From contig NZ_JALKBG010000006.1 in assembly GCF_023016155.1 (NCBI RefSeq), positions 1 through 64,000 of the forward strand: a stretch of 64,000 bases of DNA. Direction: 5' to 3'. Under the pieces are notes generated by a model. That model did not search any database. It had not been told where the DNA came from and saw only the letters and a program-made list of their open reading frames with translations. Position 1 is the first letter of the stretch. Each line of letters starts with the position of its first letter. The translations under genes and the position numbers were made by a program. Of this stretch, positions 5,985-11,037 are shown piece after piece. This DNA is from Aliiroseovarius sp. F20344. Its GTDB lineage: Bacteria; Pseudomonadota; Alphaproteobacteria; Rhodobacterales; Rhodobacteraceae.

Positions 5985-6056
5985 TGGGTGACACTGCGCG
6001 CAGGCAAAGCACTCTGATGCTTGACACTCTGCACGCGTAAAGCCAACCCTGCGCCC

Positions 6057-7505
6057 ATGTTGGACCTGCGACCAGTCATCTATGTTATCGGGCTTCTTGT
6101 CGCCGTTTTGGGCGTCACAATGCTGATTCCGGTCGTGGTTGATCTGATCGACAACAATGCCGATTGGAAGGTGTTCCTACAGAGTGCAATCGTGACCATC
6201 CTAATCGGCGGGTCCATGGCCTTGGCCACAGCAAACGGTGTCGGCAAAGGGCTGACAATTCAGCAAACTTTCCTTTTGACCACTGGTGTGTGGGTGGCGC
6301 TGCCCATTTTCGGAGCCATCCCATTTCTGCTGGCCGAGATTGACGCCCGCCCCGTAGACGCGTTTTTCGAAGCCATGTCGGGCCTGACCACCACGGGGTC
6401 AACTGTCCTGTCTGGGCTGGATGAAATGCCCAAGGGGTTGTTGTTCTGGCGTGGACTTTTGCAGTGGTTTGGAGGCATCGGGATCATTGTTGTGGCCATG
6501 GTTTTTCTGCCGGAACTCCGTGTTGGTGGTATGCAAATTTTCCGGTCTGAAGGCTTTGATACATTTGGAAAAATTCTACCCCGCGCGACCGAAATCTCAT
6601 CCCGAATTTCGGTGATCTATTTCACGCTGACCGCGCTTTGCGCCTTGGCCTATTTTTCGCTGGGGATGAGCTTTTTCGATGCTGTCACTCACGCGATGAC
6701 CACAATCGCTACGGGGGGCTATGCCAACTACGATGCATCCTTTGGAGCGTTTGGGCCGGGGCCTGAATATGCCGCAGTGGTCTTTATGTTGCTGGCTGCG
6801 TTGCCCTTTGTGCGCTACGTGCAAATCCTTCAGGGCACGGCACGTCCGTTGTTGCATGACCCACAAGTGCGCGCATTTTTCATGACGCTGGTGGTGATTG
6901 TTCTGATCATGACCCTGTGGCGTTGGCTGGCTGCTGGGCAGTTCAGCGAAGAGGCCCTGCGCAAGACATTGTTCAACCTAACCTCGATCCTCACGGGTAC
7001 AGGCTATGCGTCACAGGACTACATGACATGGGGTGGGTTCCCTGTGGTGATGTTTTTCTTTGTCGGCTTGATTGGGGGCTGCGCGGGCTCAACTGCCTGT
7101 TCGATCAAGGTATTCCGCTATCAGCTGCTGCTGTCTTCGATCAAAGCGCAGATTCAGTCGATTCACTCGCCCCACGGGATTTTCACGCCGCGCTATGGCG
7201 GGCGTCGTGTGGATGACGACGTTTTATCCTCGGTCATGGGTTTTTTCGTGTTCTTTGTGGTGACGCTGGGTGCGACGGCTGTGTTGTTGGGGCTGACCGG
7301 GTTGGACTTCACCACGTCCCTGTCTGGCGCGGCTGCGGCCCTTGCAAACATTGGTCCCGGCTTGGGGGATCTGATTGGGCCGTCTGGCAACTTTGCAGGC
7401 CTCAGCGATACGGCCAAATGGATCTTGATTGTCGCAATGCTTATTGGGCGGTTGGAGCTTTTAGCCGTGTTCGTTCTGTTCACAGTGACCTTCTGGCGCG
7501 GATAA
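6057..7505 (+). CDS. trkH: TrkH-family potassium uptake membrane subunit
   Basis: 482-residue K+ channel-forming subunit of Trk/Ktr-type potassium uptake. The four selectivity-filter loops can be read in order: SGLTTTGSTVL (about residue 100), TTIATGGYANY, SILTGTGYASQD and ANIGPGLGDLIG, each preceded by a pore helix and flanked by membrane segments. The basic segment between repeats and the long hydrophobic stretches fit the family. The ATG at 6057 was chosen; a TTG at 6021 would add 12 residues without a hydrophobic segment, and neither start has a strong ribosome-binding site. The cytosolic partner TrkA is not nearby. The gene converges on the next gene with a terminator between. Confidence 0.93.
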   Translation: MLDLRPVIYVIGLLVAVLGVTMLIPVVVDLIDNNADWKVFLQSAIVTILIGGSMALATANGVGKGLTIQQTFLLTTGVWVALPIFGAIPFLLAEIDARPVDAFFEAMSGLTTTGSTVLSGLDEMPKGLLFWRGLLQWFGGIGIIVVAMVFLPELRVGGMQIFRSEGFDTFGKILPRATEISSRISVIYFTLTALCALAYFSLGMSFFDAVTHAMTTIATGGYANYDASFGAFGPGPEYAAVVFMLLAALPFVRYVQILQGTARPLLHDPQVRAFFMTLVVIVLIMTLWRWLAAGQFSEEALRKTLFNLTSILTGTGYASQDYMTWGGFPVVMFFFVGLIGGCAGSTACSIKVFRYQLLLSSIKAQIQSIHSPHGIFTPRYGGRRVDDDVLSSVMGFFVFFVVTLGATAVLLGLTGLDFTTSLSGAAAALANIGPGLGDLIGPSGNFAGLSDTAKWILIVAMLIGRLELLAVFVLFTVTFWRG

Positions 7506-7576: not shown

Positions 7577-9415
7577 TTACTTCCAGCAACTGACCAAAAC
7601 TGTCATATCCGCAGCCTTGGTGTTCAGCTCGACCGGGTCAATCGATGTGACGCTGTCTGTTGTGCTGGCTGTCACGCCGTTGTCACCAAGGAATTCGGAC
7701 ACTTTGGCCGCATCCATGGCGAAGCTGGTATCGGTCGGAAGCGAGCGTCCGTTGGTGCCTCCGGCCGGCAACAGCATCCCCATCACAGACCCGCCTGCAT
7801 CCAGCACCGGTCCACCCGCATCGCCGGGTAGGGCGGCCAGGGTCAAGCGCGACAGATCGGCCTCGCCATTCAGGCCCGTTAGTTCCGACAACGTGCCAAA
7901 GGTCAGGCTGGGTGCGCTTAGGCGCCCTTCGTAGGAAAATCCGGCAACCGCCACATCTGATTTCAGGCGCGGCTCTGACGTCAGGAAGGATGCAAACGAA
8001 ATGGGCGCTTGGGCCGTAGCGGGCTCGAGCAGAGCAAGGCCAAGGTCTTCCTCAACGGCCACAACATTAGCCTCAAACTCATCGTTGATGGAAATGCGAG
8101 CGCAAGACTGGACAGCTTCAGAAGTCGTCAGGATGCGTCCAGAGCCATCAACATAGAACCCAGAACGGGACAGGTCAGGGGTGCGGATTTCCAAGCCGGA
8201 CAGAAGGTCCAGACTTTGCGTGGCTGCATCAAGACCTGCATCATCGGCCAGGGCTTGCGGCCCCAACGAAGCGAAGCTGGCTTTCATGTCACCAAGCGCT
8301 AGGTTGCGCCGCTTTTCGTCGCCCTTGGGCCAAACAAGAGTGAAGCCCTTAACAGTGCCATCCACCAGTTTGACCTGAGTGAAGGATGTGATCTTGTCAT
8401 CCTCGCCTTCGATTGTGAATCCGTTCTTTCCACGTTCACGTGGACCCTCGGTCGGGACAATCTCAAGCGTTTGCAGAATGTCATAAAGGCCGTAGAGCGT
8501 GTTTTGATCACCCGTTTGGCTGATCATCACAAGCTTAACACCGCTGTCGCCTTTTGTTTTGAAGTGGACAAACGGGGCTTCGTAGCGATCAAATTCCACC
8601 ATTGCAGCCGGGATGGCCATTGCAAGGCCCGCGCCCAGATCCTCGTATGCGGCCATGCCCACTGCGTCCAAAACGGATTGGTAATTGTCCAATAGGGCAG
8701 TGCGCTGGCGGGTGGTCAGAACACCGGTTGGTTCATATCCGTAATCCCCTTGCCAAGCGGCCATAGAGCGCCGGGTGCCGGCCCCAAACGCGCCATCAAT
8801 CGACGAGGTGTAGTAGCCTTCCCACTTCAACGCGACTTGAAGCGCCTTGCGGGCGTCACGGTCCAGCTGGCGTTCGCTGGCCAGTGCTTCGCGCTTGGTT
8901 TCCTCTTGAATCAATTCGACGGTGGGTTCTGTTGTTTGGGTCGGGGCAGGCGCTGCCGTTTCAGTTTGAACCTCGGGTTGTGGCGCTGGTGCTTCAGGCG
9001 TCTCGATCGGGGCCGCTGTCAGTGTACTTTCCCCAATAGGCCAATACTGCTGGCGAAGCTGCCTTGAGAACGCGATGAAGCTGTCTTGGGGAATAAGGCC
9101 CGCATTCTTGAGATTGCGCAACTGCACGTCGGCGGCCTGAGGTGTGTAGGGCCCAAGGACAATGGCGTACCAGTTTCCACCAATTCGGAACCCATTCACG
9201 CCTTCAAGACGCGCGGCGTAACGGCGGGCACTGGCCTCGGCCTCACGCAGCGAGGGTTGGGCTTCGACCTGAATCCAACGCACTGACTGAGAATTGGTAG
9301 ATTGTTGTGCGACAGCAGGCTGGGCAGCCACAATGGCGACCGCACTGGTTGCAGCAATCGTGGACATACAGGGAAGAAGGCCAGTGGCCAATGCAAGGGC
9401 AAATTGTTTGGTCAT
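7577..9415 (-). CDS. Secreted SPOR/peptidoglycan-binding protein with degenerate trypsin-like domain
   Basis: 612 residues. A signal peptide (MTKQFALALATGLLP... to about residue 37, ending AVAQQ) sends it to the periplasm. Residues about 45-120 look like a SPOR domain (VEAQPSLREAEASARRYAARL, WYAIVLGPY), which binds denuded glycan at division sites. Residues about 185-235 form a PG_binding_1 domain (LQVALKWEGYYTSSIDGAFGAGTRRSMAAWQ). The C-terminal 200 residues resemble a trypsin/HtrA-type fold: ILTTSEAVQSC, DLGLALLEP, GDAGGPVLDAGG. The usual catalytic Ser (GDSGGP) is Ala and the usual His region (TAAH/TNAH) reads TSEA, so it is probably not a protease. The ATG has AGAGGATCT upstream. It likely has a structural or sensing role at the cell wall. 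Confidence 0.8.
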   Translation of the reverse strand: MTKQFALALATGLLPCMSTIAATSAVAIVAAQPAVAQQSTNSQSVRWIQVEAQPSLREAEASARRYAARLEGVNGFRIGGNWYAIVLGPYTPQAADVQLRNLKNAGLIPQDSFIAFSRQLRQQYWPIGESTLTAAPIETPEAPAPQPEVQTETAAPAPTQTTEPTVELIQEETKREALASERQLDRDARKALQVALKWEGYYTSSIDGAFGAGTRRSMAAWQGDYGYEPTGVLTTRQRTALLDNYQSVLDAVGMAAYEDLGAGLAMAIPAAMVEFDRYEAPFVHFKTKGDSGVKLVMISQTGDQNTLYGLYDILQTLEIVPTEGPRERGKNGFTIEGEDDKITSFTQVKLVDGTVKGFTLVWPKGDEKRRNLALGDMKASFASLGPQALADDAGLDAATQSLDLLSGLEIRTPDLSRSGFYVDGSGRILTTSEAVQSCARISINDEFEANVVAVEEDLGLALLEPATAQAPISFASFLTSEPRLKSDVAVAGFSYEGRLSAPSLTFGTLSELTGLNGEADLSRLTLAALPGDAGGPVLDAGGSVMGMLLPAGGTNGRSLPTDTSFAMDAAKVSEFLGDNGVTASTTDSVTSIDPVELNTKAADMTVLVSCWK

Positions 9416-9628
9416 AGATCCTCTTAGCCAATAGGCGAATTGGGCTGAATTTCGCGCAAGTAACACACCGGCCCCCGATAAGGTCAATATCAGCTTGACG
9501 CCTTTCGGAAATTTCTACGGCAAAATGGCGGGTTTTCCCAACCCTTGTACCCGTTTCCCGCGTTGACCCTGTCCGGGCCAGCGCCTATTGAGTGGCAAGT
9601 TTTGCATAAACCAGTTCAGGGCAGCGCT

Positions 9629-10573
9629 ATGGCCACGACCAAGACCAAACCTCAGTGCTTTCAGGAAATCATCCTGCGGCTTCAGAATTACTGGGCTGAA
9701 AAGGGCTGTGCGGTGATGCAGCCCTATGACCTTGAGGTCGGCGCAGGCACCTTCCACCCGGCCACCACATTGCGGTCGCTGGGATCTAAGCCGTGGGCTG
9801 CGGCCTATGTGCAGCCTTCGCGCCGCCCCACGGACGGGCGCTATGGTGAGAACCCAAACCGTCTGCAGCACTACTATCAGTATCAGGTGCTGATCAAACC
9901 AAGCCCGCCCGATTTGCAGGAGCTGTACCTGGGGTCGCTTGAAGCCATCGGCATCGACATGGACATGCATGACATCCGCTTTGTTGAGGATGACTGGGAA
10001 AGCCCCACGCTTGGTGCTTGGGGACTGGGCTGGGAAGTCTGGTGCGACGGCATGGAAGTCAGCCAGTTTACCTATTTCCAACAAGTTGGCGGTCATGACT
10101 GCAAGCCTGTTTCAGGCGAGCTGACTTACGGGCTAGAGCGTTTGGCGATGTACATTCTGGGCGTCGATCACGTCATGGATATGCCTTTCAACGCGCCGGA
10201 TGCCTTGATCCCTCTGACTTATGGTGACGTGTTCAAACAGACCGAGGAAGAATACGCCCGCTGGAACTTTGATGTTGCCAACACCGAAGTTCTGTTGCGT
10301 CACTTCGAAGAGGCCGAGGCCGAATGCCGCGCGATTTTGGACCAAGAACATGTGGACCCCAAAACCGGCAAGCGTATCGTCATGGCGCACCCCGCTTATG
10401 ACCAGTGCATCAAGGCATCGCATCTGTTCAACCTTCTGGACGCGCGTGGGGTGATCTCGGTTACCGAACGTCAGGCCTATATTGGGCGCGTGCGGGCGCT
10501 TGCCAAACAATGCGCAGATGCGTTTATCCAAACCACCGCCGGTGGCTGGGCCTCTGATGGGGACGCGGCGTGA
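9629..10573 (+). CDS. glyQ: Glycyl-tRNA synthetase alpha subunit
   Basis: Catalytic alpha chain of the heterotetrameric (alpha2beta2) class II glycyl-tRNA synthetase; forms glycyl-adenylate and charges tRNA-Gly. 314 residues. The family start [24 protein letters not shown] is followed by [14 protein letters not shown], the motif 2 loop [16 protein letters not shown], and [13 protein letters not shown] near residue 170. The ATG at 9629 gives the usual family N-terminus; the frame remains open upstream to 9545 but that part is not conserved-looking. It is followed, with a 4-base overlap, by a small membrane protein gene and then glyS, so all three are probably one operon. Confidence 0.97.
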
Positions 10574-11037
10574 GCGGCCGTCTGGTAGGGAGTTTTATCG
10601 TGGGACTTGCCCTTATTGCAGGCGCAGCGATCTATTGGTTGCAACTTTACGCCTTTTACGACGAGGTTTCGGCCGAAGATGGTGTCCGTATGACCAATCT
10701 GGTCACCGGCCAGCCTGAAATCGTGCTCTATGACAGTTTCAAAGGGATTGACGCCGACAGCTCGCCCTTGCGCTATCGCGGGTGTTTCACCACCACGATG
10801 AGCCTTGCTATGCTGACCGAGACGTTTGAACCCTACGAAGAAGCCACCCCTTTGACTGCACCCGGTTGGTTTGACTGCTTTGATGCCGTTGCCATTGGTG
10901 CCGCCATCGAAAACGGCGAAGCTTTGGCCTTCCTTGGTGAACGCGATATCAAAGATGGGGTCGACCGCGTTGTCGCCATCTTCCCTGATGGCCGGGGCTT
11001 CGTCTGGCATCAGTTGAACGAAAAATATAGCGAGTAA
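10570..11037 (+). CDS. DUF6446-like membrane-anchored protein between glyQ and glyS
   Basis: 155 residues beginning with GTG, which overlaps the glyQ stop (GTGA), indicating translational coupling. One N-terminal membrane helix ([21 protein letters not shown]) is followed by an exported domain of about 125 residues with the pattern [61 protein letters not shown]. Two Cys residues could form a disulfide. I recall such genes between glyQ and glyS in Rhodobacteraceae as DUF6446; no function is known. No enzyme motif is visible. Confidence 0.75.

Follow-up and report, generated by a model that had tools for sequence, protein, structure and literature searches.

On the minus strand of the window, a 64,000-nucleotide stretch of DNA from Aliiroseovarius sp. 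F20344, we find a gene whose product carries a trypsin-like domain that has kept its fold and lost its complete catalytic triad, and our sequence comparisons strongly support that it belongs to a family-wide pseudoprotease of the Rhodobacteraceae. Given the loss of the triad, the protein is predicted to be probably without cutting activity. Its frame begins with an ATG at 9415 and ends with a stop at 7577-7579, encodes 612 amino acids and, by reading, has a Shine-Dalgarno-like AGAGGA ahead of the start codon (Table 1). An earlier sequence-only reading had placed a SPOR and peptidoglycan-binding protein with an inactive trypsin-like domain here, and the open frame and the domain matches agree with it in coordinates, strand and domains, the SPOR match lying below the Pfam cut-off. 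The Aliiroseovarius genome of the window contains the protein once in full, along with two weak matches to single domains, and the five closest named records, all from Aliiroseovarius, are 79-82% identical. We reject a lone decayed gene or pseudogene, given the open frame, the conservation of the protein and its low dN/dS.

Table 1. Features of the gene, its product and its neighbours (window positions)
Feature	Position	Strand	Basis or remark
Whole gene: SPOR-like, PG_binding_1, PsbP/Mog1-like, pseudotrypsin	7577..9415	-	612 aa
Putative N-terminal secretion signal, about residues 1-37, hydrophobic, ending AQPAVAQQ	9305..9415	-	by reading
SPOR-like domain, residues 47-105	9101..9277	-	weak Pfam match, structure model, family scan
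PG_binding_1 domain, residues 186-241	8693..8860	-	Pfam
Middle domain, about residues 248-388, PsbP/Mog1-like in model, without Pfam match	8252..8674	-	structure model
Trypsin_2 domain, residues 418-547	7775..8164	-	Pfam
E433 at catalytic His position (TTSEAV)	8117..8119	-	alignments
G459 at catalytic Asp position (EEDLGLALL)	8039..8041	-	alignments
A533 at catalytic Ser position (GDAGGP)	7817..7819	-	alignments
Cys 438, invariant	8102..8104	-	family alignment
Cys 610, invariant, C-terminal VSCWK tail	7586..7588	-	family alignment
Presumed glyQ (glycyl-tRNA synthetase alpha), divergent neighbour	9545..10573	+	ORF compared by sequence
Presumed trkH-like potassium transporter gene, convergent neighbour	6021..7505	+	56/144 loci

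The trypsin-like domain scores well above the Pfam cut-off for Trypsin_2 (56.8 versus 27.6 bits, E 5.5e-15). Alignment to the solved MarP places E433, G459 and A533 at the positions of the catalytic His, Asp and Ser, and eight intact homologues have H, D and S at these very columns in 8/8 cases. The sequence-only reading was right about GDAGGP in place of GDSGGP and about TSEA in place of the His motif; its remark that an Asp region remains does not hold, as the catalytic Asp column is the glycine of EEDLGLALL and the D of EED stands two residues earlier. An intact triad under another alignment was sought in three alignments, none of which gives one for this protein, and the structure prediction that had been suggested as a check returns a trypsin/HtrA fold. 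MarP (Rv3671c) and the Deg/HtrA proteins are the closest solved matches in sequence and fold, but they keep the triad that is lost here; GDAGGP in the structure 3lt3 is, by its title, a Ser343Ala mutant. With 26.6 bits against a cut-off of 250 for the NCBIfam MarP model, the protein is not a member of the MarP family, and no PDZ domain was matched in it by Pfam.

The loss of the triad extends far beyond this genus. We read the triad in 144 relatives, namely 117 copies from same-family genomes (out of 209 other genomes with a match at E <= 1e-29) and 27 named records; this set includes close kin, two of them alike over the last 300 residues. Letters were present at all three positions in 134 of the 144, where 127 keep no triad residue, six keep one and a single relative, L086, keeps all three. 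Three of the six retain Ser alone (L147, L071, L083) and three Asp alone (L082, L084, L087). The ten gapped rows comprise four that are cut there (L049, L057, L073, L081) and six that are shortened by a small deletion at the Asp position and have a residue other than D ahead of the LALL-type strand. L088 and L089, intact-triad proteins of other make-up, were left out of this count. Once L086 is removed, and counting rows with a letter, E or D fills the His position in 102/140, G the Asp position in 123/133 and A the Ser position in 98/139. That this pattern recurs across the family makes it more than chance.

Around the former active site, conservation is uneven. The scaffold beside the dead Ser is strongly kept (G531 in 133/139, D532 in 130/139 and G534 in 138/139 rows), as are F/Y493, Y495, R523 and P560 elsewhere in the domain. 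The His and Ser positions themselves come no higher than 97th and 110th among 176 columns, below the median, so the old active site as such is under no special selection, and a binding surface, if there is any, probably lies elsewhere. No conserved His occurs in residues 408-612, where the best column reaches 19% His, which makes a relocated Ser-His pair unlikely. Cys 438 is present in 141/141 rows with a letter (three gapped) and Cys 610 in 139/139 (five gapped). Since several intact relatives (L086, L088 and others) have cysteines at comparable places, the two residues likely pair as a disulfide rather than act as nucleophile; a relocated catalytic His or Cys was rejected on these grounds. 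It is hardly credible, then, that the protein still cuts by means of an active site that has moved or is unorthodox: the E or D that often fills the His column and the intact GD.GG loop would suit such an enzyme, but it would have no conserved His, and its near-invariant cysteines look disulfide-like.

The phylogeny of the domain points to a single origin of the dead form. In a refined tree built on 55 trypsin domains, from which the three triad columns had been removed and the rows L087, L077, L205, L204, L084, L079 and L191 dropped, one branch parts 47 dead from 8 intact domains with a support of 100/100, and the same branch is recovered in 100% of 200 bootstrap trees. An earlier quick tree had long branches, and both trees use a hand-picked subset of relatives. 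With the root placed among the intact domains, which is an assumption, the tree contains one triad-loss event. The pseudoprotease proposed by the earlier reading is thus borne out by the loss of the whole triad, by the single branch, by the family-wide occurrence and by the lack of a conserved His column. The intact relative L086, seen in one genome (G162), has the same four parts as the dead proteins by profile (SPOR, PG-binding, middle and trypsin parts) as well as both cysteines, and differs from them in its intact H, D and S. L086 corresponds to L212:4569-6809 on the plus strand; glyQ and trkH are absent from its 11-kb contig, and the upstream frame L212:2-2095 looks, by reading, like a heavy-metal P-type ATPase.

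Not every relative needs the dead domain: in one genus (G023, G258, G278, G284, G314, G331) the protein at the glyQ-trkH locus has no trypsin match in 6/6 genomes. This protein consists of two SPOR-like stretches, a PG-binding part and the middle domain (L184, L185, L186, L188, L189, L213), and the simplest reading of these sequences is that the trypsin-like domain has been lost there. Such a locus would agree with the possible, if somewhat unlikely, alternative that the dead domain is no binding module and merely a passive structural cap, stabilising or spacing the SPOR, PG-binding and PsbP-like parts; the low conservation rank of the His and Ser columns would fit this as well. On the other hand, the retention of F/Y493, Y495, R523 and P560 and the presence of the domain in most relatives suggest more than a cap, even if these residues could also serve the fold. 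A further relative beside glyQ and trkH, L083, also speaks against a cap: it is shortened to the PsbP-like and pseudotrypsin parts alone, without SPOR or PG-binding matches, and has kept the Ser and lost the His and Asp of the triad.

Structure prediction and substitution rates both suggest that the dead domain is maintained. Our model of 575 residues reached a mean pLDDT of 92.8 and a pTM of 0.64, so the domains are sure and their mutual arrangement is not. The best matches of the trypsin part are 5jd8 (Z 20.7, rmsd 2.2, 157 residues aligned) and DegS (2qf0, Z 20.6), and in the model the match to this fold runs on to about residue 582, past the end of the Pfam match at 547. Among eight congeneric sequences the median dN/dS of the trypsin-like part is 0.11 (27 of 28 pairs), compared with 0.06 for both SPOR and PG-binding, 0.10 for both the middle domain and the tail, and 0.22 for the linker; all these values are rough, since dS is near saturation. 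Two of the loci used (L150, L153) are among 30 that came from a profile search with the middle domain. The low, if rough, dN/dS indicates purifying selection on the protein, the dead domain included. Taken with the family-wide triad loss, it means that the protein is kept by selection across species, yet one genus does without the domain.

The N-terminal half of the protein suggests where it may act. Judged by eye, the N-terminus resembles a secretion signal, and the protein is thus presumably secreted. PG_binding_1 is matched above the Pfam cut-off (E 5.3e-11, 43 versus 23 bits), and a Pfam scan of 45 family members, our protein included, at E <= 0.05 matched it in 45/45 and listed 12 families. 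SPOR was matched in 23/45 members (best E 8.7e-9); in the protein described here it reaches 16.2 bits against a cut-off of 21 (E 0.014). The model of this region shows strands and helices in the order beta-alpha-beta-beta-alpha-beta, which is the known order of SPOR domains. Together, the SPOR-like domain and PG_binding_1 would anchor the protein to peptidoglycan, while a septal location is suggested solely by the SPOR-like domain, weak as it is in this sequence. FtsN, DamX and RlpA are SPOR-domain proteins. With the SPOR-domain proteins treated in the available part of PMC6895207 our protein shares the SPOR-like domain and, presumably, a place in the envelope facing the peptidoglycan; it differs in having no lytic enzyme domain in Pfam and PG_binding_1, a PsbP-like domain and a dead trypsin instead. 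A 'sporulation domain protein' of Dinoroseobacter, Dshi_0924, is described in the accessible text of PMC7901474 as abundant in vesicles and as an outer-membrane lipoprotein; we compared it by this description alone and do not claim identity. The portion of the DalA paper available to us (PMC10470522) is methods text without bearing on our protein.

The middle domain has no Pfam match, and the PsbP family is absent at E <= 10 in this protein and absent among the 12 families listed for the 45 members at E <= 0.05. Modelled alone (pLDDT 88.8), it resembles PsbP, CyanoP and Mog1, with Foldseek E values starting at 2.6e-5 and Z scores reaching 12.6; PsbP chains stand in the top rows, at Z 11.2-12.6 and an rmsd of 3.3-4.0 over 129-135 residues. 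It shares the fold with these proteins, but identity is just 8-17% in the top rows. A profile of the domain matched 143/149 genomes drawn from the order, all 149 of which belong to the Rhodobacteraceae, and 5/289 genomes from the class, four of them Rhodobacteraceae and one with a match that is weak and partial, at E 1.2e-4 over 36 positions. Bar this one match, the domain is confined to the Rhodobacteraceae among the genomes searched with a profile that might miss very remote forms. The segment 8252-8674 (minus strand) is family-wide yet lacks a Pfam match, and may deserve a family entry of its own, with the PsbP/Mog1 fold.

Within the family, we surveyed 248 Rhodobacteraceae genomes, one per genus. 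Any match at E <= 0.001 was found in 237/248, and a strong match (E <= 1e-29) in 210/248, counted by hand and including the genome of the window and that of L086. The other 38 fall below the strong-match level, 27 with weak matches alone and 11 with none, and therefore the protein is not universal in the family. When 44 genomes (these 38, G162 and five relatives of G023) were searched again with the full profile, 42 matched parts of it, mostly the PG-binding or trypsin stretches. The neighbourhood is stable: glyQ lies upstream in divergent orientation in 132/144 loci, which favours vertical descent. Of the 12 loci without it, seven have two bases or fewer upstream of the frame (L086 among them) and five have more than 1300. 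The trkH-like gene is convergent in 56/144 loci; many loci have little sequence on that side. Between glyQ and glyS, positions 10570-11037 on the plus strand encode a protein of 155 aa with, by eye, an N-terminal membrane-like segment; it is recognisable in 100 of 185 loci, which are partly redundant, of unequal reach and include the 30 from the middle-domain search.

What, then, might a dead protease do at the cell wall? A protease-shaped part that is well preserved without its cutting residues probably holds or regulates partners rather than cuts them, and a binding or regulatory role is our best inference from these sequences. With moderate confidence, we favour a secreted, wall-bound pseudoprotease that would serve as a scaffold or adaptor through its docking modules. 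After secretion, the SPOR-like domain and PG_binding_1 would fix the protein to peptidoglycan, SPOR biasing it toward amidase-treated, septal glycan. The C438-C610 disulfide would pin the dead trypsin fold, which together with the PsbP/Mog1-like domain could form a pair of docking modules for proteins or peptides of the periplasm. In this manner the protein might gather or restrain wall enzymes or a periplasmic protease without cutting. A bolder version, which we regard as unlikely, would make it a division or envelope hub throughout the Rhodobacteraceae and special to them: a formerly active envelope protease like L086 would have become, in one event, a protein-docking module next to the PsbP/Mog1-like one, and the wall-bound adaptor would now signal septal, amidase-processed glycan to wall enzymes.

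Trypsin-fold pseudoproteases are already known in Alphaproteobacteria, MamO foremost, as the accessible part of PMC4794232 describes. According to the same text, MamO has His and Asp in place, Thr instead of Ser, a metal bound via a surface di-His and a transporter domain. Both proteins are alphaproteobacterial and have a trypsin/HtrA fold, and ours, like MamO, is probably inactive and repurposed; here, in contrast, all three triad positions are lost, no conserved His remains and peptidoglycan-binding parts are attached. A MamO-like metal site, i.e. a surface His pair, was rejected, no column in 408-612 exceeding 19% His. MamO is needed for MamE-dependent proteolysis without a triad of its own (PMC4794232, as far as available), and by analogy our protein could activate or restrain an active periplasmic DegP/HtrA-type protease. 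We consider this quite unlikely: the neighbours identified at the loci are glyQ and trkH, and the available text of PMC4794232 traces the activation by MamO to its transporter domain, which is absent here. The genome of the window does encode a possible partner.

This candidate (L003) has an intact triad and is a protein that we take, by its motif, to be DegP-like. Returning to the preferred scaffold or adaptor, what sets it apart from MamO is the combination of full triad loss, the lack of a conserved His and joined wall-binding parts in most of a large family. Among the matches listed in the open-access literature, searched by titles and abstract openings, we found no description of this protein or of a SPOR-trypsin pseudoprotease. 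Automatic annotation, as we would expect, might label it a trypsin-like peptidase and would mislead. Instead, the findings point to a wall-associated, apparently undescribed protein with a PsbP-like domain missed by Pfam. In conclusion, a pseudoprotease present across most of a large family, with one loss event, one intact relative and one domain-less genus, lets one test in tractable strains why dead enzymes persist in bacteria.
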